DNA from: an uncultured Roseobacter sp.
Lineage (GTDB): Bacteria > Pseudomonadota > Alphaproteobacteria > Rhodobacterales > Rhodobacteraceae
Direction: 5' to 3'
Assembly: GCF_947493125.1 (NCBI RefSeq)
Contig: NZ_CANLQB010000001.1
Coordinates: forward strand, 1 to 64,000
Length of the DNA stretch: 64,000 bases
In this document: in pieces, positions 48,245-60,772 of the stretch
How the letters are laid out: every line of letters begins with the position of its first letter
Numbering within the stretch: the stretch's first letter is position 1
Program-made: the position numbers and the translations under genes
The notes under the pieces: generated by a model
Seen by the model: the letters and a program-made list of their open reading frames with translations, nothing else
What the model was told of the DNA's origin: nothing
The model's database searches: none

Positions 48245-48265
48245 ATAGTTGTATCATACAACTAT
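48245..48265. promoter_or_regulatory. Perfect 21-bp palindrome between SDR and MarR genes
   Basis: ATAGTTGTAT, a central C, then the exact reverse complement ATACAACTAT. It lies in the 59-base gap between the two divergent starts (48,219 and 48,279), the right place and size for a MarR operator. Confidence 0.88.
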
Positions 48266-48278
48266 ATGGGAAGCCAAT

Positions 48279-49232
48279 ATGGATGCCGACGCCGCAACCG
48301 ACATCGAACGAATCCGTTCGGCCTCTCGCAGGCTGGTGCGGGAGCTCGGTTTCATGGAGCAGACCCTGGCGGGCACCAACCTGTCTCCGTCTGCGGTTCA
48401 TGCCCTGATCGAGATCGCGGAAGGCCGCGCGACCACGGCGCGGGATTTGTCAGATCTTTTGCGCCTTGAAAAATCTTCGGTCAGCCGATTGTTGAAAAAA
48501 CTGATCGAAACCGGAGACGTCGTCGAAACGCAGGACAAGGACGACTTTCGCGTCAAGCGATTGACCCTGACGACAAATGGCTGCGCGCTTTTTGCTGCCA
48601 TCGCCAAATCGGCACAAACGCGGGTTGGTCAGGCGATTGCGCCGCTTTCGGAAGACATCATTTGTACCTTGATTGCCGGTCTGGAAGGGTATGCCGAGGC
48701 TTTGGAGCGCTCGCGCTCGGACACCATGGCACCTGACCAACCCGGGATCGCCGAGGGCTACCGTCCCACGGTGCTGGGGCGCGTTGTCGAGATGCACGCG
48801 CACTACTACAGCGGGCTGGTCGGGTTCGGACTGCCGTTCGAGACCAAGGTGGCGTCGGAACTGGCCGAATTCATGACACGCCTTGATGCACCGACAAACG
48901 GCATCTGGCATGTGGCCTCGGGTGGGCGGATCAGCGCATCGATCGCGATTGACGGCCAGGACCTGGACGGCGACGTTGCACATCTGCGGTGGTTCATCGT
49001 GGACGACACGCTGCGCGGCACCGGCATTGGCAAGCGGTTGCTGGACGCGGCCATCGCCTTTTGCGATGCGCAAGGGTTTTCGGAAACACATCTTTGGACA
49101 TTTCAGGGCCTCGAGACCGCCCGCGCCCTCTATGAACGCGTCGGTTTCCAACTGGCCGAAGAAAACGCGGGCCGACAATGGGGCGCGGAAGTGATCGAGC
49201 AGAGGTTTGTGAGGGTTGGTCAACGCGATTGA
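48279..49232 (+). CDS. MarR-family regulator fused to a GNAT acetyltransferase domain
   Basis: 317 residues. Residues ~8-145: MarR winged HTH (LSPSAVHALIEIAEGRATTARDLSDLLRLEKSSVSRLLKKLIETGDV...DFRVKRLTLT). Residues ~165-315: GNAT domain with LRWFIVDDTLRGTGIGKRLLD, and ALYERVGFQLAEE near the end. MarR-GNAT fusions are a known architecture. The adjacent palindrome suggests autoregulation and control of the SDR. Confidence 0.88.
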   Translation: MDADAATDIERIRSASRRLVRELGFMEQTLAGTNLSPSAVHALIEIAEGRATTARDLSDLLRLEKSSVSRLLKKLIETGDVVETQDKDDFRVKRLTLTTNGCALFAAIAKSAQTRVGQAIAPLSEDIICTLIAGLEGYAEALERSRSDTMAPDQPGIAEGYRPTVLGRVVEMHAHYYSGLVGFGLPFETKVASELAEFMTRLDAPTNGIWHVASGGRISASIAIDGQDLDGDVAHLRWFIVDDTLRGTGIGKRLLDAAIAFCDAQGFSETHLWTFQGLETARALYERVGFQLAEENAGRQWGAEVIEQRFVRVGQRD

Positions 49233-49998: not shown

Positions 49999-51186
49999 TC
50001 AGATTTTTTCAAGGGCGATCGCATGGAATGTCGCGCTCCCTGGGGAGCGGCCCAAGTCAGCGGAAATGGCATCACCTATGCGGACGCCTGCAACGATTGC
50101 GGCGTCAAAGTAACCGGTCAAGAGAGACTTATAGCCCGTGAACCAAAGCCCTGGATGGCCGGGATCTGCCTCGCCTGTCGGGTGTTTTGGCCGCCCTTCG
50201 GCATCCAGGACGCCCAGGTGTTCTACCAGTGGCTCAAGATCGGTTTGATAGCCCGTCGCGCAGATCACGACATCGGGCGCATAACGGTGCCCGTTTACAA
50301 ACGAGACATCCGACCCCGACACGTCGCGGACTGCTCCGACAACCCTGAACCGACCCGTCTTGATGGCTGCGACGAAGCCGTCGTCGATTGCAAAAGCGGT
50401 GCCGTCTTGAGCCAGTCGGGTGCCCCCGCCCAGCGGATGTGACGTGAGACCGTGCCGTGTCAGGTCCCCGAAGAAGAGGCGTTGGGTGAGTGCGAATGCC
50501 CGATCCACCAGCGGCAGCGGCATCGCCTGAAACAACCGCGCCGCGCGGTGAAGGGGAAAGCCCAAAACCCGTTTTGGAACGATGGCCGGGCCATGGCGGA
50601 CCGAGATCACGACCTCCGCAGGTGCGTGGCGGGCCAGATGGTTGAGCACGTCAGCTCCGGAGTTTCCAGCGCCGACAACCAGAACCCGCTTTCCGTCGAA
50701 CCGGGAAACATCACCGAGGTCGGCCGCGTGCAGCAGATCGCCCTGGAAGGTCGCCAATCCGGGCCAGTCGGGAATGTGCGGAACGCGGTCCCGCCCGGTC
50801 GCAAAGACCACATGTGCCGCGTGATAGGTCTGATCCGCGGTGCGAATTGCCCAACCGGCCGTCTTGCGTTCGACGGCTTTGACCTCTGCGCCGAAATGGA
50901 TTGCAATACCGATCTGCCGGGCATAGCGCTCGAGATATTCGACGACGCTGTCGCGTTTGAGGAACGCACCGTCCTTTCGCGGCGGGTGCAGTCCCGGGAG
51001 TCTGGCAAAATGCCGGTGAATGTTCAGCCGCAATGCCGGATGACGATTGCGCCAGGGCTCCGCTATCCTGTTTTGTGCCTCCAGGATCGTGACCGGAATG
51101 CCGCGTATTGCAAGGCCCCGGGCCGCGATGAGGCCCGACAACCCGGCGCCGATCACCAGAACATCCTGGCACTCTTTTTCATCCAT
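49999..51186 (-). CDS. Flavin-containing monooxygenase
   Basis: 395 residues from ATG 51186 (MDEKECQD); an ATG at 51234 adds 16 residues and would sit 17 bases after the upstream stop, so either is possible. FAD motif VLVIGAGLSGL, the FMO-type FQGDLLHAADL, the NADPH motif VVGAGNSGAD, and CATGYQTDL. It follows the MddA-like gene on the same strand. A methylated sulfur substrate is a contextual guess. Confidence 0.87.
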   Translation of the reverse strand: MDEKECQDVLVIGAGLSGLIAARGLAIRGIPVTILEAQNRIAEPWRNRHPALRLNIHRHFARLPGLHPPRKDGAFLKRDSVVEYLERYARQIGIAIHFGAEVKAVERKTAGWAIRTADQTYHAAHVVFATGRDRVPHIPDWPGLATFQGDLLHAADLGDVSRFDGKRVLVVGAGNSGADVLNHLARHAPAEVVISVRHGPAIVPKRVLGFPLHRAARLFQAMPLPLVDRAFALTQRLFFGDLTRHGLTSHPLGGGTRLAQDGTAFAIDDGFVAAIKTGRFRVVGAVRDVSGSDVSFVNGHRYAPDVVICATGYQTDLEPLVEHLGVLDAEGRPKHPTGEADPGHPGLWFTGYKSLLTGYFDAAIVAGVRIGDAISADLGRSPGSATFHAIALEKI

Positions 51187-51251
51187 GATTTCATCTTTCG
51201 TTTTGTAGTCTGTGGTCGATCTCTGGACGGCCATCACTCTGCGGTCTGTCG

Positions 51252-51974
51252 TCAGCGTGCACGGCGGAACGGATGCGGGATGAGCATTGGCACGTCGCGT
51301 CGATAATTTTCGTAGTCCGCCCCGAATTCGCGTAGCAAAGCGCGTTCCTCTAGGCGCAGGCCGATCATGATGTAGAGTGTCATCGCGGCCACAAAGAGCA
51401 GGTGCCCGGCCGTCATCACCGGCGTCGCGGTCATCGTGACGATCAGACCGAACTGGAGGGGATGGCGCACCAGACGATAGAGGAACGGCGTGCGAAACTG
51501 CGGTGGTTTTTTCGCGACACCGCGCAGGTTGTTCCAGGCCTGTGACAGCCCGACGAATTCGCCGTGGCCAAGCAGAAAGGTCGAGACGAGAATGATGGCG
51601 GTCCCGAGGAAAAACGCGCCGTAGACGATCCATGCGGCAAGCCCGTCGATATCCCAGATCACGACCGGGATCGGCTGCCAGCACCAAAAGATCAACGCCA
51701 GCAAGAAGGACGACTGAAGAACATAGGTTGCCCGCTCGGCAGCATGCGGGATGATCCGTAACCAGACGCGCTTGAAGGCTGGGCGGGCCATGACGCTGTG
51801 GGCGATGCCAAAGGCGGCGATGAGCGTCAGATTGATAGCGGCGGCACTCGCGGGCGCGCTCTTTGCGGGGCCGCGCAGATCGCCGATGTTCAGCAGGAAG
51901 GCGGCGAGCCAGACGAAGACGATGCCAAAGAGGCCGTAGCAGCCAATGGCGTAGACAAATATGATGCGTTTCAT
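51252..51974 (-). CDS. mddA: MddA-like methanethiol S-methyltransferase (isoprenylcysteine-methyltransferase/NnrU fold)
   Basis: 240-residue membrane protein with about six helices. The C-terminal region FLYRLVRHPLQFG, the HLLFVAAMTLYIMIGLRLEE stretch and GADYENYRRDVPMLIPHP match MddA, which uses SAM to methylate methanethiol to dimethyl sulfide. NnrU-type relatives are the main alternative. It lies between a secreted protein gene and the FMO gene, all on the minus strand. Confidence 0.72.
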   Translation of the reverse strand: MKRIIFVYAIGCYGLFGIVFVWLAAFLLNIGDLRGPAKSAPASAAAINLTLIAAFGIAHSVMARPAFKRVWLRIIPHAAERATYVLQSSFLLALIFWCWQPIPVVIWDIDGLAAWIVYGAFFLGTAIILVSTFLLGHGEFVGLSQAWNNLRGVAKKPPQFRTPFLYRLVRHPLQFGLIVTMTATPVMTAGHLLFVAAMTLYIMIGLRLEERALLREFGADYENYRRDVPMLIPHPFRRAR

Positions 51975-52102
51975 GTCGAACCTATTGGTGAATGGCGATG
52001 TCGGCCTGGTCAGCCAAAAAAACCAGTCTGAGAAACGGGGAAAGTCAGGCGCTATGGGTGTCGGGGGCTGGGACGGCAGCGAACCACCGCCCCAACGACA
52101 CG

Positions 52103-52831
52103 TCAGAGGCCGGTCCTTGGTGGCAGGGTCACGTACATCTGCACGTGGGTCACGGTCGAAAACTCACCGGGCAGTGGTCCATACGTCTTTCCGTTGGAAT
52201 GCCAGGCGAGCGCAAGGTCGGCGACCAGATGCTCACCGGTCAATTGCAGACAAGGCGTGATTGTACGTTCGAACCTGGCCGACCCGGAGGCGTCCGCGAC
52301 GAATTCATTCTCTGATCCGTCACGTGCACCGAATGGCAGATCGTAAGTGCCGATGAACGGATCGGTCGGCGGCCAGACCATGAAGTCGTGCCAAATGGTG
52401 TATACCCCGTTCGGGACAAGATGGCTGAACTGCAAATCCAGCTTGCCCGTACCGTCCTTGCAGACATACGTGCCGTGGCCCTCCGCCGCGAACCACTCGC
52501 CAAGGGTCAGCCCCAGAGCCGGACCTTTTGGATAGGGACCGGTGTCGAACGTATCGAGAAAATTGTGTGGTACTTCGACGGCAGGTGCGTAAAGAGGCGC
52601 GTCCATGTCCCTGGTCGCCGCCGTCGGACGGAAAACTTCGCCCGAGCCGGGCACCTTTTCGTAAAACACATCCTGCTCGGCCATGCCGTCGTCGATGTGG
52701 AAGATGAAGCTGAGCGTCATCTGCTCCACCGGATCGTACGGGACCGCACCCTCCGAGCCGCTGGACTCTGCAAAGGCGATCCCGCCTTGGGCCAGAACAA
52801 GGAGTGCGATTGTCGGTAGTTGAGGTTTCAT
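52103..52831 (-). CDS. Secreted protein of unknown function
   Basis: 242 residues from ATG 52831 (MKPQLPTIALLVLAQ), with a signal peptide cleaved near residue 20. Mature part has two Cys (TYVCKDG, ITPCLQ), GVYTIWHDFMVWPPTDPF, and a C-terminal THVQMYVTLP. I do not recognise the family. An ATG 19 codons earlier would displace the signal peptide. Lies in the same-strand cluster between the peroxidase and mddA. Confidence 0.7.
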   Translation of the reverse strand: MKPQLPTIALLVLAQGGIAFAESSGSEGAVPYDPVEQMTLSFIFHIDDGMAEQDVFYEKVPGSGEVFRPTAATRDMDAPLYAPAVEVPHNFLDTFDTGPYPKGPALGLTLGEWFAAEGHGTYVCKDGTGKLDLQFSHLVPNGVYTIWHDFMVWPPTDPFIGTYDLPFGARDGSENEFVADASGSARFERTITPCLQLTGEHLVADLALAWHSNGKTYGPLPGEFSTVTHVQMYVTLPPRTGL

Positions 52832-53015
52832 TTTGAGCGTCTTTCCTGTTTTCCGGCCCTCAAGCCGATTGGGAGTATGATCCGCCATGCCCGTTCGGAT
52901 CGGATGTGGCGGTTCGGTCCTGAACGTGCGTGTCGCGTATCAGGGGTCTTTGACCCCCGGAGAAATCCTCCGCATGGGCATATGTGAGATTTCTTTTTTC
53001 CTTCTCTCCCGCGCG

Positions 53016-54566
53016 CTATCCCCCGTGATCGCCGGAGCGCGCTGGCGTGGGTTGAGGCGGCAGGCCGGATGGAACGTGCATCGGGACAAGATCACTGCGG
53101 TCGATCGCGGACGGGTCCGTAAGGCTTTCGAGGAAGGCCACCAGTGCGGCGACCTCGGCCTCGCTACGGGATTGCGGCGCCAGCGTATTGGCCGCAGCGA
53201 TACGCGCCCGAAGGGCGTGGCTTTGCTGCACCCAGACATCCCGCAACGCAAACGCCTCGCGACGGGCAGGGTTGAGCGGACGAAAGATCAATTCCGATCC
53301 AAACCCGGTTGCCTCGATCACGTGGTCGAGCGGTGGCAGATCGGCCCCCGCCACATCATACTCAGCCAGCGAAGTCACCGGATCGAAGTGATGGCGCACC
53401 ACATCTTCCAGTTTGCCGAAGGCGCCGTCATGTCCCCAGGGACCGGTCAGCGAGACATTGCGCAGCGAAGGTGTGCGAAAGGCAAAGAGATCGTCGGCAT
53501 CGAACGTCACACGGTACCGCCCTTCATCCTCAAGCCGCGCCATGAAGCCGGACGCCCGCCAATAGCCGGTGTCTTCGCCATGCCCCTTGCCCGGTCCGAT
53601 CTGCGGCATCGCAATCGCGTGAAACCCATGATCGGTCAGCAAAGGTCCGGAATGACACCCCGAACAGCCGGCATCGCCATAGAACAGTTGCATGCCGAGC
53701 TTTGCCTCGGGGCCGAGGGCGTCGGCCTCACCGGACAGCCATCGGTCGAACGGGCTCGCGTCAGAGCGGAAGGCGACCGATTGGAACGCCGCCAGCGCGC
53801 GCGCTGCATTTACGAATGTCACGGTATCGGCTGGCACCAGCCCGTCGTATTCATCCGCAAGGGCCCGCATGAACATCTCGACATAGGCGGGTGTCTTGGC
53901 GAGCCGCGCGGCAAGCAGGTCCCAAGCATCCTGGAGACGATCCTCGGCGACAGCCGTGGCAACCGCGTTCTCGCCCTTCTGCCCCGCCATCTCCTTATGC
54001 GAGATGACCGGGAACATCGCCTGTGCCGCGAGCAGGCTGTCGAGACCCACTGGCAAATCTTCCCGCGCCGGGCTCCAGAACCCGCTTGCGAAGGTTGCAG
54101 CCGGATCAGGTTCCAACCTGCCGTCGTGGAACATGGCGGTGTATTCCTTTGCGCCAATGTTCCAAAGTGGCTGGGCGTTTCGCGGTATCCGGCTGACGAC
54201 GCCGTCTTCAGTCCGCCGGTCGCGGCCAAACCCGGTTCCGCCTTCGCCGATGGACAACGACAGGTCATCTCCTGTGCCGCGGGCCGGATCGTGACAGGTG
54301 CCGCAGGAAATGTTTCGATTGCCCGAAAGGATCGGGTCGAAAAACAGGGCGCGACCCAGATCCACCAGGGCATCGGGTGGCGCGCCCTCGTACAGAAAAT
54401 CGGAGTCCACCAATGGTCTGGGCAGGTCGATCTCGCTGTGACCGCCGCCAGCCCTGACCGGGTCCAGCGGTTTTGTTGCAAGCACCAGCCCGATGGCCAC
54501 ACTGGAAAGCAACGAGACGCTTATCGGGCCGCGAAGCATGGATGGTTTTGAGTTCTGTCGAGACAT
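53016..54566 (-). CDS. Di-haem cytochrome c peroxidase/MauG family protein
   Basis: 516 residues from ATG 54566. After a signal-type N-terminus (GPISVSLLSSVAIGLVLA) come two haem-binding motifs: CGTCH in the N-terminal half and CSGCH in the centre. Other marks are LGRALFFDPILSGNRNISC and FRTPSLRNVSLTGPWGHDGAF, typical of periplasmic peroxidases. Whether it reduces H2O2 or acts like MauG is not resolved. Longer frames run into the DUF1127 gene. The plus strand here has a long open antisense frame that is not a gene. Confidence 0.87.
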   Translation of the reverse strand: MSRQNSKPSMLRGPISVSLLSSVAIGLVLATKPLDPVRAGGGHSEIDLPRPLVDSDFLYEGAPPDALVDLGRALFFDPILSGNRNISCGTCHDPARGTGDDLSLSIGEGGTGFGRDRRTEDGVVSRIPRNAQPLWNIGAKEYTAMFHDGRLEPDPAATFASGFWSPAREDLPVGLDSLLAAQAMFPVISHKEMAGQKGENAVATAVAEDRLQDAWDLLAARLAKTPAYVEMFMRALADEYDGLVPADTVTFVNAARALAAFQSVAFRSDASPFDRWLSGEADALGPEAKLGMQLFYGDAGCSGCHSGPLLTDHGFHAIAMPQIGPGKGHGEDTGYWRASGFMARLEDEGRYRVTFDADDLFAFRTPSLRNVSLTGPWGHDGAFGKLEDVVRHHFDPVTSLAEYDVAGADLPPLDHVIEATGFGSELIFRPLNPARREAFALRDVWVQQSHALRARIAAANTLAPQSRSEAEVAALVAFLESLTDPSAIDRSDLVPMHVPSGLPPQPTPARSGDHGG

Positions 54567-54618
54567 GGGTTGCTTTCGCTTTTCGGATGGGAGATGCGAC
54601 AATTCACGTGGCGCGGTT

Positions 54619-54801
54619 TTAGAATTTGGCGTCAAAATCGACCCAGTCGCTCTCGCGCCGCAGTCCGATGTCGCGCAACATGTGATCGGATAGTTTAGAC
54701 AGAGCGCCGGAACGCCACCGACGACCCCAGCCGGTTCCAGCTTGGGCGTAGGCACAACGGATGGCTGCGCGGAGACGGTTCGCAATGGTCTTGTAGGTCA
54801 T
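54619..54801 (-). CDS. DUF1127 small protein
   Basis: 60 residues from ATG 54801 (MTYKTIANRLRA). Ends GALSKLSDHMLRDIGLRRESDWVDFDAKF, the conserved DUF1127 C-terminal motif. RBS is weak. It sits 52 bases before the peroxidase and 68 bases after the methyltransferase gene on the same strand. Confidence 0.75.
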   Translation of the reverse strand: MTYKTIANRLRAAIRCAYAQAGTGWGRRWRSGALSKLSDHMLRDIGLRRESDWVDFDAKF

Positions 54802-54869
54802 TGTTTCAAAATTCTTTCCAGGTATCAGGCCACAGCGGCAGAAACCGCGGCTGCGTGCCGGCAGGTTGG

Positions 54870-55811
54870 TCAGGCTGCGTCGAGCGCCTTGCAGATCTGG
54901 TCGAGATGTCGATAGTCGGTGCCACAACAGCCACCGACGACCGACAGGTTCGGCAGTTGATCCGCAAGCGCGCGATAGAGTTGACCAAGCTCGACAGGAT
55001 CGCCGTCATCGAGGTCTTCGGCCACATCGAGTTCCGCGTGCGAAAGACGGGACGCATTCGCCCGCAGGCCGCCGATCCGTTTGATCCAGTCACCGCCCCC
55101 CGCTAGGGTTTCCTTGAAGTGATCGGGATGCGCGCAATTGATCATGAAGTATGCCGCCGCTGCATTCGTTGCTGAATCGACCTCGCGCACAGCGTCGGCC
55201 AGTGTTTCGCCGGACGGCAAGTGGCCGTCGGTTTCGAGCGTGAACGAGACCACCGAGGGGATGTCCTCATCGCGGGCGGCGCGCACGATGCCGATCGCTT
55301 CGGAGACGGAAGTGATGGTAATCCCGGAGACCATGTCGGCCCCGAGCTCGCTGAACCAGCGGATTTGCTCGGCGTAATACGCGTGCGCTTCGGCTGCGGT
55401 GAGTTGAGTTGCAGGCGCATAGCCGTCGTCGTGCGGCCCGACGACGCCGTTGATCACGAAGGGTGAGGCGGGCGTTTCGAAATCCTGGCGCAGAGCCGCC
55501 AGCGTGGCGATCGCCTCGCGGTGGATCTCCTTCAAATCCGCGCTGTCGAGGCCCAGTTGCGCGCCCCATTTGGAACTCGCGCGCCAGGTGGGCGTGTCCA
55601 TGATGAAGCCGCGTCCGGTTTGAACCGCGAGCTTCGCGAGTTGCCGCATGTAGCGTTTGATCGCGTCTGCCCCGGCGTCGGTTTCGAGTGCCTTGAACGC
55701 GGCAAAGAGCGGCAGATCGATCCCCTCGTGAAAGACCAGAATGGTCTCCAGGCCGGCTTCGGTCAGCATCTTGTGGCCATTCAGCTGTGGCAGAGCGTGT
55801 CGGTATTTCAT
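54870..55811 (-). CDS. Homocysteine S-methyltransferase family protein
   Basis: 313 residues from ATG 55811. Zn-binding Cys residues appear as NCAHPDH and GGCCGTD; the N-terminus has LTEAGLETILVFHEGIDL. This is the MmuM/BHMT-type fold, transferring a methyl group to homocysteine; the donor (S-methylmethionine, DMSP or betaine) is not known. Divergent from the GlxA-type regulator, and the first gene of the minus-strand run to 49,999. Confidence 0.88.
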   Translation of the reverse strand: MKYRHALPQLNGHKMLTEAGLETILVFHEGIDLPLFAAFKALETDAGADAIKRYMRQLAKLAVQTGRGFIMDTPTWRASSKWGAQLGLDSADLKEIHREAIATLAALRQDFETPASPFVINGVVGPHDDGYAPATQLTAAEAHAYYAEQIRWFSELGADMVSGITITSVSEAIGIVRAARDEDIPSVVSFTLETDGHLPSGETLADAVREVDSATNAAAAYFMINCAHPDHFKETLAGGGDWIKRIGGLRANASRLSHAELDVAEDLDDGDPVELGQLYRALADQLPNLSVVGGCCGTDYRHLDQICKALDAA

Positions 55812-55929
55812 GTTCGGGTCCTTCGATGACTGAGCCCCTGCGGGCCTTTCTTGCAAAGGCTTGTGGACCAGGAGGCATGAGTCGTGATATGGCAGAATCT
55901 TCCCGAAACGGTGAATTTCAGACAGGTCT

Positions 55930-56979
55930 ATGGCGGTACCCACATCTTTGAAAACGGTTGTTCTGGCGCTGCCCTGCGCGGGCACGTCGACGCTGTTCGG
56001 CATCCTTGACGTGATGGGATCCGTGGGGCGTGACTGGGAGATGCTGCATGGTCTTGCGCCCCGGTCGCCGCTCTTTGATGTGAGTCTTCTGTCGCCGGAC
56101 GGGCGGGCCTATTCGGATGTGAATGGACGTGCGGTCGTTCCTGAAGGAGGTCTTGCGGATGCATTAACCGACCAACCGCCGCCCGATCTGGTGATCATCC
56201 CGGATCTGCATATCGATGTGCATGCCCCTTTCCCGACAGAGCTGGAACCAGTGGCAGAATGGCTGCGGGACGTGGCAGCCCAAGGCGCCCTGATGACATC
56301 GGTCTGCTCGGGTGCGTGGCTCTTGGCGCATGCCGGCCTGCTCGACGGCCTCGACGCGACGACGCATTGGGCTTACGCGGACAAGATTGCGCGATTGCAC
56401 CCCAAGGTCAGGATCCGGCGCGAGCGCATCCTCGTCCCGGCGGGAGAAGGGCATCGCATCGTCACGGCCGGCGGCGCCTCCGCTTGGGGAGATCTGATGC
56501 TGTATCTGATCGCCCGCTTCGGTGGGCAAGAGGAGGCGCGGCGGATCTCCAAGATCTACTTGCTACAGCCCCATACCGACAGCCAGCTTTGCTATGCTTC
56601 CTTGCTTGCCGGCCGCCAACACGAAGATGCCCTTGTCGCCGAGGCTCAGGTCTGGGCGGCCGGCAACTATGCGCACCCGGCGCCGGTGGCGGCGATGGCC
56701 AAAGTGGCGGGTCTGAGTGAGCGCAGTTTGCTGCGCCGTTTCCGGCGTGCCACCGGGCAGACACCGGTCCAATACATTCAAACCCTGCGTGTCGAAGAGG
56801 CAAAGCAAATGCTGGAGACGACGGGCATGTCAATTGAGGACATCGCCGAAGAGGTCGGGTATACCGAAACGTCCAGCTTTCGTAGCGCGTTTCGCCGCAA
56901 CGTCGGCATTTCGGCCTCCGTTTATCGACGAAAGCACGCAGTCGTGGCGCCGCTGACTGATACCAACCGCATGGCCTGA
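55930..56979 (+). CDS. AraC/GlxA-type transcriptional regulator
   Basis: 349 residues. Residues ~10-180 are a DJ-1/PfpI-like domain with the nucleophile-elbow Cys in TSVCSGAWLLAHAGLLDG. The C-terminal ~100 residues are an AraC HTH pair: VAAMAKVAGLSERSLLRRFRRATGQTPVQYIQ and IEDIAEEVGYTETSSFRSAFRRNVG. Divergent from the homocysteine methyltransferase gene, 118 bases apart, so it probably controls that cluster. Confidence 0.9.
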   Translation: MAVPTSLKTVVLALPCAGTSTLFGILDVMGSVGRDWEMLHGLAPRSPLFDVSLLSPDGRAYSDVNGRAVVPEGGLADALTDQPPPDLVIIPDLHIDVHAPFPTELEPVAEWLRDVAAQGALMTSVCSGAWLLAHAGLLDGLDATTHWAYADKIARLHPKVRIRRERILVPAGEGHRIVTAGGASAWGDLMLYLIARFGGQEEARRISKIYLLQPHTDSQLCYASLLAGRQHEDALVAEAQVWAAGNYAHPAPVAAMAKVAGLSERSLLRRFRRATGQTPVQYIQTLRVEEAKQMLETTGMSIEDIAEEVGYTETSSFRSAFRRNVGISASVYRRKHAVVAPLTDTNRMA

Positions 56980-59561: not shown

Positions 59562-60611
59562 GTGCTTGTACCAATTGCTTCTGAGCGGCGGCACATAGCG
59601 CATCGAAAACGGTATCTGTGGCAGCATCCTTCTGGGCGGTGGTACGTCCGTAAGTGCATCAACGGCAAGATGATCTATCTGGGGCGCATCGCGGCGGAAG
59701 TTGGAACGGCTGCGTTTGACCACCTGTATTGGGAGATTGTGAGCGGGAAGTCCTCCGTTTCAAAGACTTCATGGGCATTGCTCATCGATGAGATGATGCA
59801 GACCGACAAGTGGGCTAACTATTCCCCGCGCTACCGGGCCGACCTTGAAGAAGTCTTTGAGTATCTTGTCGAAAAGATTGGCAAGGCAGATGTCGCACGC
59901 CTCACACAGGCGGATATCTATGACGCGATGGACAAGAACCGTCACCGGGTGCGTTTCGCTAACTATATCCCAACTGCAATCAGCATGTTGTCGAAGCTGG
60001 CGATCCGAAAGCGCTGGCGCAAAGACAACCCAGCGACGGACATCGAGCAACTCAAGGTTCCGAAAGATCGACAGAAACCGCACCTGCCGTGGACAGACGG
60101 GGCGGTCAAGAAGATGCGAGAAGACGGGGAGCCGTTACCGCTACTCATCTTTGAGATTGGCGTAGGCAGCGTCCAGCGTCCCGGGGATTGGGTGGATTTC
60201 CAATGGGGCGACTATGACGGCGATATGCTGAAGCTGCGCCAGAACAAGACGGGCAAAGCACTTCAGTTGCCTGGTACCAAGGCGCTGAAAGCTGCACTGG
60301 ATCGAGCAAAAAGTGATCTGGGGTTCTCCCCACATCCGTCACGGCACATTCTAACGCGCTCAGATGGTTCGGCGATGAGCTATCACACCATGGCACGGGT
60401 GATGGTCAAAGAGCGTAAGCGTCTGGGATTGATGGCTTTTGACCAGCACGCGCTACGCTACCGAGGCGTCATGGAGCTTGCCTGGGCGGGTTGCACAGAC
60501 GACGAGATTGCCAGCTACAGCGGCCACACATCCAAGAAGATGATCATCAAATATGCCGGTGAAGCGCGCCAGGTCATGCGAGCGCGGCAAGCCGCAGCCA
60601 AACGGAAATAG
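59562..60611 (+). CDS. Tyrosine-type site-specific integrase
   Basis: 349 residues from a GTG at 59562; the true start could be slightly upstream or downstream. Catalytic pattern: Arg in GSVQRPGDWVDF, His-x-x-Arg in HALRYRG, His in SGHTSKK, and the Tyr nucleophile in IIKYAGEA. N-terminal arm-binding-type region begins with RRHIAHRKRYLWQHP. It lies 88 bases from the 3' end of tRNA-Cys and reads toward it, as in many tRNA-integrated elements. Confidence 0.88.
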   Translation: MLVPIASERRHIAHRKRYLWQHPSGRWYVRKCINGKMIYLGRIAAEVGTAAFDHLYWEIVSGKSSVSKTSWALLIDEMMQTDKWANYSPRYRADLEEVFEYLVEKIGKADVARLTQADIYDAMDKNRHRVRFANYIPTAISMLSKLAIRKRWRKDNPATDIEQLKVPKDRQKPHLPWTDGAVKKMREDGEPLPLLIFEIGVGSVQRPGDWVDFQWGDYDGDMLKLRQNKTGKALQLPGTKALKAALDRAKSDLGFSPHPSRHILTRSDGSAMSYHTMARVMVKERKRLGLMAFDQHALRYRGVMELAWAGCTDDEIASYSGHTSKKMIIKYAGEARQVMRARQAAAKRK

Positions 60612-60698: not shown

Positions 60699-60772
60699 TG
60701 GAGGCGAGTACCGGAATCGAACCGGTGTACACGGATTTGCAATCCGCTGCGTCACCACTCCGCCAACTCGCC
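60699..60772 (-). tRNA. tRNA-Cys (anticodon GCA)
   Basis: On the minus strand the acceptor arms are GGCGAGT and ACTCGCC, with discriminator T and encoded CCA. The anticodon loop carries GCA between GCGGAT and ATCCGTG; the T arm is ACCGG-TTCGATT-CCGGT. Total 74 bases. Its 3' end faces the integrase gene. Confidence 0.97.

Follow-up and report, generated by a model that had tools for sequence, protein, structure and literature searches.

A possible inducible sulfur-compound gene cluster of exchangeable modules under a GlxA-type regulator in an uncultured Roseobacter

We analyzed a seven-gene cluster encoded within the first 64,000 nucleotides (hereafter, the window) of contig NZ_CANLQB010000001.1 of an uncultured Roseobacter sp. 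(NCBI RefSeq assembly GCF_947493125.1). The cluster encodes a homocysteine S-methyltransferase family protein (HMT), a small DUF1127 protein, a di-heme cytochrome c peroxidase/MauG-like protein (CCP), a secreted protein (SECR), an MddA-like membrane methyltransferase, a flavin monooxygenase (FMO) and a GlxA-type AraC regulator (Table 1). The association of these genes exceeds chance, and the cluster of the window is a mosaic of exchangeable modules. Our favored reading, which we hold tentatively and at somewhat less than even confidence, is that it represents an inducible accessory cluster of Roseobacteraceae, assembled from such modules, that handles a small sulfur compound. No description of this cluster was found in the open-access papers searched.

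Recurrence and mosaic origin of the cluster

To define the distribution of the cluster, SECR was used as a query against several sets of sequences: a scan of genome contigs gave 12 loci and a plasmid search one further locus; the family sample gave matches in two of 149 genomes (the own genome and G125, the latter taken as the L011 record); and, with the L019 protein as query, the class sample gave matches in five of 385 genomes (the own genome, one distant match, and three usable ones). Including the window, the total is 17 distinct SECR loci, with L007 and L035 treated as the L011 record and uncounted, and with L036 (a fragment) and L037 (distant, E 1.4e-4) kept outside this number. CCP and SECR form the most constant pair, adjoining each other in 14 of the 17 loci, and they occur together, in reversed order, in a metagenome-assembled genome (MAG) of Acidobacteriota (L019). 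FMO was found near SECR in nine loci, with a divergent FMO additionally in L033, the GlxA-type regulator in nine (10 including a 38% relative in L023), and a winged-helix/TPR regulator in five, one of them a partial match.

The whole seven-gene set is carried by L008, a close relative nearly the same as the window, and also by L055 (family genome G055), where SECR is replaced by another secreted protein, SECR2. The proteins of L055 are 59% (GlxA), 47% (HMT), 57% (CCP), 71% (MddA-like) and 71% (FMO) identical to those of the window, and its DUF1127-like gene was recognized by eye. The initial annotation, which proposed an organosulfur methyl-cycling system, had named a lack of co-occurrence elsewhere as fatal to that proposal. 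The opposite was found: HMT and the MddA-like gene are close to each other in eight loci (the window, L008, L009, L010, L021, L055, L056, and L057), the MddA-like gene adjoins FMO in three (the window, L008, and L055), and the combination of GlxA, HMT and FMO also recurs. HMT and the MddA-like gene are adjacent in L057 and have intervening genes in the other seven loci, including L021, where ~2.6 kb of sequence containing a transposase gene separates them. It should be noted that L008 is a near-copy of the window and that the Ruegeria loci L012, L014, L015, and L016 are near-copies of each other, so that locus counts do not represent independent events. In addition, the flanks covered ~1.5 kb or less for 24 class MddA loci and 30 HMT loci, and L018, L019 and some others stop at contig ends, so that a farther partner would escape.

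Relatives of the MddA-like protein (E <= 1e-40) and of the FMO (E <= 1e-70) were found in seven and five of 295 family genomes, respectively, and neither was found at these limits in G647, a genome of the same genus. The scarcity of both in the family samples marks the cluster as rare and accessory.

In quick trees with SH-aLRT as the sole branch support, the window HMT nests with the clusters that carry the winged-helix regulator (eight rows, support 98) and not with the GlxA clusters of Ruegeria. The window CCP gives the same picture (four rows with L009 and L010, support 98), and the HMT of L055 belongs to yet another lineage, with weaker support. The simplest account of this mosaic is that a GlxA regulator and an FMO joined an HMT-DUF1127-CCP-SECR-MddA backbone. 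A tyrosine integrase gene 2.6 kb and a tRNA-Cys gene 3.7 kb past the regulator gene suggest a genomic island, and no clear pair of attachment or integration repeats was found around the integrase. This proximity and the exchange of modules between loci would suit the idea that the seven genes are unrelated neighbors held together by mobility and not by function, but we regard this as very improbable, given that the operator-like motif described below occurs both on a plasmid and on genome contigs, that the CCP-SECR pair is present even in the Acidobacteriota MAG, and that different HMT lineages are found in the same setting.

Three side observations concern related loci. L062 has an otherwise similar cluster (GlxA, HMT, FMO, and DUF1127-like genes) in which the CCP match is a short N-terminal piece only. 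In L023, a plasmid of Leisingera methylohalidivorans, genes for a S-adenosylmethionine (SAM) methyltransferase, a SECR relative and a histone-deacetylase-like protein are consecutive. In L020, a vanadium-dependent haloperoxidase gene lies a few kb from a plasmid set of GlxA, SAM methyltransferase and FMO genes.

Regulator and operator-like motif

The motif TGTCYGAWWTTCACCG was found in exact form in 12 of the 15 loci whose regulator matches the GlxA-type one over a long stretch, a descriptive count since the pattern was read from the same loci. As a control, word pairs shared by nine of 10 regulator regions were set against 30 letter shuffles, in which the maximum was three; such shuffles ignore the common descent of the regions. 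A visible variant is present in L055, and no exact match was found in L020 and L023, which are outside the operator alignment but within the 15 loci; weak partial regulator matches (L011, L014, L033, L035, L084, and L096) were not counted. Exact sites listed in 228 genomes numbered 11, of which two correspond to this cluster type (the G000 cluster and G036). As the other nine showed no cluster genes and overlap open reading frames (ORFs; the one at L139 is doubtful), the regulator is read as local, and it looks dedicated to the cluster. Separately, CTCAGG-like direct repeats ~11 bases apart were seen by eye beside the winged-helix/TPR regulator, and such repeats lie upstream of HMT in L009, L010, L011, L021, L068, and L070.

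Proposed pathway and its enzymes

According to our favored reading, the GlxA-type regulator would sense the compound and turn the operon on. In the cytoplasm, HMT would methylate homocysteine with a methylated sulfonium as donor, yielding methionine and a methyl thioether; the membrane-bound MddA-like enzyme would methylate a thiol in a SAM-dependent manner, again yielding a thioether; and the FMO would convert the thioether to a sulfoxide. With HMT acting on a sulfonium, the MddA-like enzyme on a thiol and the FMO on a thioether, the three activities would meet at a methyl thioether. CCP and SECR would act as a periplasmic pair, either in peroxide defense or with CCP modifying SECR. We infer the substrate and the order of steps in this route, and the substrate need not be methanethiol. 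In favor of this reading stand the linkage of HMT to the MddA-like gene and the single clade of the linked proteins, the adjacency of FMO in three loci, the activities of the FMO and HMT relatives described below, the conserved HMT cysteines, the operator-like motif, the constant CCP-SECR pair, the MATE exporter gene found in four of the eight HMT/MddA-like loci, and the presence of mtoX/SBP56 in the genome.

First, the MddA-like protein resembles MddA in length and membrane type, but it scores below the curated cut-off (NF045656; 253.9 versus 270 bits). All six scored HMT-linked proteins are below this value (235-254 bits), whereas seven of the eight others scored pass it (303-358 bits), the eighth being L058 (244 bits). 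In a tree of 36 proteins, in which L040 and L118 are long branches, the eight HMT-linked proteins form one clade (support 99/99) with none of the 28 others inside, and no HMT was found within ~1.5 kb in the 24 class MddA loci. We compared columns conserved in at least 90% of 25 other MddA-like rows (L040, L118, and L058 left out). The clade retains 42 of these 50 columns, including RHP and EE, and differs at eight (window residues 58, 135, 138, 140, 141, 181, 182, and 212), which bunch at 135-141 and 181-182. The conserved RHP, EE and Tyr belong to the SAM site, and the pattern of residues fits a clade in which the SAM site is kept and the acceptor site may have changed.

These results bear on the initial annotation, in which MddA makes dimethyl sulfide (DMS). 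In full, such a methanethiol/DMS cycle would have MddA producing DMS, the FMO oxidizing it to dimethyl sulfoxide, and HMT demethylating dimethylsulfoniopropionate (DMSP) or S-methylmethionine. The same gene co-occurrence speaks for it as for our favored reading, as do the 42 retained columns and the presence of mtoX/SBP56 in the genome (sole match, on another contig), which makes methanethiol handling plausible for the host; moreover, Tmm-type FMOs oxidize DMS (PMC8498191, in excerpt). However, the missed cut-off and the clustered residue changes weaken DMS production as a first reading, and the window FMO is nearer to the ArsO model (159.9 bits, cut-off 425) than to Tmm (55.9 bits, cut-off 675), passing neither. 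We consider this cycle unlikely. The initial proposal is nevertheless supported in part: its genes recur, and the relatives of FMO and HMT described next have activities on sulfides and on DMSP, respectively.

Second, HMT matches PF02574 (110.2 bits, cut-off 22) and retains the cysteine motifs INCAHP and GGCCG, presumably zinc ligands; GGCCG and an NC motif are present in all 17 HMT rows examined. It scores below the cut-off of the betaine-homocysteine methyltransferase model (PRK07534; 51.3 bits, cut-off 338). Bmt of Phaeobacter inhibens, likewise a Roseobacter homocysteine methyltransferase, can use a sulfonium donor: in vitro, both DMSP and betaine allow it to form methionine, and both raise its expression under osmotic and oxidative stress (PMC12366255, in excerpt). 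The likeness is one of description, and the window protein falls short of the betaine-homocysteine cut-off. A 41-residue HMT-like stretch (46%) lies immediately upstream of SECR in L033 and is perhaps a remnant.

Third, the best PDB match of the FMO is 4usr (E 8.8e-27). Of the motifs typical of class B flavin monooxygenases (two GxGxxG and FxGxxxHxxxY), GxGxxG is present twice in all 15 FMO rows and FxGxxxH in 14. Its best solved relatives by sequence are the type II FMOs SMFMO, CFMO and PSFMO, which share the two Rossmann motifs and FxGxxxH, and of which CFMO and PSFMO oxidize prochiral sulfides (PMC4220118, in excerpt). In contrast to these enzymes, the final Tyr of FxGxxxHxxxY is present in none of the 14 rows with the motif, which have Leu or Phe instead.

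CCP and its secreted partners

CCP matches PF03150 (120.5 bits, cut-off 25.6), has an N-terminal export signal read by eye, and has two CXXCH motifs whose residues (C88/C91/H92 and C301/C304/H305) are invariant across 12 rows. Its best NCBIfam model is TIGR03981 (260.5 bits, below the cut-off of 340), and it fails the cut-offs of MauG (TIGR03791; 123.9 versus 443.85) and MbnH (TIGR04039; 131.1 versus 362.85). The best PDB match of the CCP profile is the di-heme enzyme 6e1c, which we take to be MbnH. This likeness to the MbnH/MbnP system is limited by the missed MbnH cut-off and by SECR, which has no family in the libraries searched.

Indeed, SECR had no match in Pfam, NCBIfam or PDB sequences at the limits used, and no relative was confirmed in viral contigs. 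Its profile gave only two PDB matches (E 0.46 and 0.75), and its 18 members two chance-level Pfam matches, so that placement in a known family was rejected. Residues H45, H89, H211, H229, W113, and W147 are invariant in 16 rows, and H211, W113, and W147 remain so after adding two more distant rows. Both cysteines are lost together in L033, suggesting that C124 and C194 are likely to form a disulfide. In L036, near the contig end and adjoining a winged-helix/TPR regulator, a SECR-like N-terminal stretch runs into TPR-like repeats (by eye).

The initial annotation gave neither protein a role, yet they are the most constant pair of the cluster. This constancy could point to a general oxidative-stress cluster, consisting of a peroxidase, a secreted protein resembling a superoxide dismutase (SOD), an HMT that resupplies methionine, and an FMO, all under stress control and with MddA incidental. 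The predicted SECR model is mostly beta (pLDDT 73.8), and eight of its first 10 Foldseek matches are Cu/Zn SODs or a complex holding one, with weak scores (best E 1.1e-3, TMq ~0.3, none at E <= 0.001) and unrelated folds intermixed. The stress response of Bmt mentioned above (PMC12366255, in excerpt) and the OsmC gene next to SECR in L033 also agree with this explanation. Nonetheless, we consider it improbable: no sequence kinship of SECR with SodC was seen (hhalign probability 0.3% against 16 SodC sequences, with shallow profiles), none of its 18 members matches Sod_Cu of Pfam at E <= 5, and the linkage of HMT and the MddA-like gene persists across eight loci.

A MauG-like gene is also part of the methanethiol oxidase operon mtoX-SCO1/senC-mauG (PMC5739008, in excerpt). 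The arrangement is similar in that, in Roseobacters that cycle sulfur, a MauG-like di-heme gene lies near a gene whose protein product has conserved His and Trp, and different in that SECR is not SBP56, no SCO1 is found among the seven window genes, and mtoX is located on another contig of the genome.

SECR2, the alternative secreted protein, lies near HMT in L055, L056, L057, L070, L081, and L085, and was modeled as an allene-oxide-cyclase (AOC) barrel (pLDDT 66); pyocyanin demethylase 5k21 ranks first among the PDB matches of this model (E 1.7e-6). The CCPs that accompany SECR2 in L055 and L070 (the latter partial) pair in the tree (support 99), which may mean that CCP is matched to the secreted protein it accompanies (n = 2). 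The SECR2 match raises the question of whether the cluster, instead of being a sulfur pathway, serves to inactivate a natural product, redox-active or aromatic in nature, through methylation, oxygenation and peroxidase activity. In line with this, a SAM methyltransferase replaces HMT near FMO in five loci (L017, L018, L020, L022, and L061); the L018 protein has a Rv2258c-like helix-turn-helix and the other four are 68-80% identical to it. Moreover, four of the eight HMT/MddA-like loci (L009, L010, L055, and L057) carry a MATE exporter gene close to the MddA-like one. On the other hand, the known HMT family acts on homocysteine, SECR2 is outside the window and its model has a pLDDT of just 66, AOC barrels are functionally diverse, and the window had no MATE match by the query used. 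We regard this explanation, like the methanethiol/DMS cycle, as unlikely.

Observations that weigh against the sulfur reading

Several observations count against the cluster being a dedicated sulfur pathway. The MddA-like protein misses its cut-off and departs from MddA at eight conserved columns, and it was found in only four of the 17 SECR loci and not in the other 13, which also tells against the methyl-cycling system of the initial annotation. HMT is present in only nine SECR loci, L033 having just the 41-residue stretch, and the SAM methyltransferase that takes its place in five loci need not have a sulfur substrate. Relatives of HMT (E <= 1e-50) are common (56 of 248 family genomes), and 22 of the 30 HMT loci listed have no MddA-like, CCP, SECR2 or winged-helix gene within ~1.5 kb; the remaining eight, window included, have such neighbors, one of them a 26% winged-helix match alone. 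This mostly separate occurrence of HMT also speaks against the initial annotation. Finally, FMO-family enzymes oxidize N as well as S.

Organization of the cluster in the window

All seven genes were confirmed in place as initially annotated, with six minus-strand genes facing a divergent regulator. The intergenic gaps are 68 (HMT-DUF1127), 52 (DUF1127-CCP), 184 (CCP-SECR), 128 (SECR-MddA-like), and 65 bases (MddA-like-FMO), those of 184 and 128 bases, which may divide the run into two operons, agreeing with the initial annotation, and 118 bases separate HMT from the divergent regulator gene. A terminator scan of the region listed four sites, all on the plus strand (5.7 expected from shuffles), and none on the minus strand. 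Gene coordinates are our own chosen starts; the family scans used longer ORFs for SECR, CCP, DUF1127 and HMT, and an FMO shorter by five residues. Outside the cluster, MarR-type regulator and GNAT acetyltransferase domains are combined in a single ORF.

Table 1. Coordinates of the cluster genes and of other features mentioned in the text.
Feature	Record	Coordinates	Strand	Basis
FMO, flavin monooxygenase	window	49999..51186	-	FMO-like PF00743, 74.2 bits; GAGLSG, GAGNSG, FxGxxxH
MddA-like membrane methyltransferase (membrane type by family)	window	51252..51974	-	NF045656, below cut-off
SECR, secreted protein (signal by eye)	window	52103..52831	-	no family in libraries searched
CCP, di-heme cytochrome c peroxidase/MauG-like	window	53016..54566	-	PF03150, two CXXCH
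DUF1127 small protein, 60 aa	window	54619..54801	-	PF06568, 27.8 bits (cut-off 23.3)
HMT, homocysteine S-methyltransferase family	window	54870..55811	-	PF02574
Operator-like motif TGTCYGAWWTTCACCG, between regulator and HMT	window	55909..55924	-	motif comparison across regulator loci
GlxA-type AraC regulator, divergent (DJ-1/PfpI + HTH_18)	window	55930..56979	+	PF01965, PF12833
MarR-GNAT ORF	window	48249-49232	+	
Tyrosine integrase	window	59562-60611	+	
tRNA-Cys	window	60699-60772	-	
mtoX/SBP56	G000 C6	295012-296388		
MATE exporter	L009	9878-11215		
MATE exporter	L010	9656-10993		
MATE exporter	L055	6212-7630		
MATE exporter	L057	4816-6063		
Haloperoxidase	L020	13654-14964		
SAM methyltransferase, SECR relative, histone-deacetylase-like	L023	7840-10802		
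HMT-like stretch	L033	7794-7916		
SECR-like/TPR-like stretch	L036	7726-8628		by eye
CCP N-terminal piece	L062	7174-7467		

Implications

A more specific and rather doubtful version of our reading is that the thiol methylated by the MddA-like clade is not methanethiol but another one, in a thioether pathway with its own regulator, and that CCP oxidatively matures SECR, a secreted, SOD-like metalloprotein with conserved His that would act on the same compound, making the two a new MauG-type enzyme/substrate pair.

Roseobacters are important in the marine sulfur cycle, and if the favored reading is true, some of them would carry an inducible route from a sulfonium or thiol to a sulfoxide. In that case, mddA-like genes in such Roseobacters should not be counted as those of DMS producers until tested, and CCP with SECR would extend MauG/MbnH-type chemistry by a further partner.

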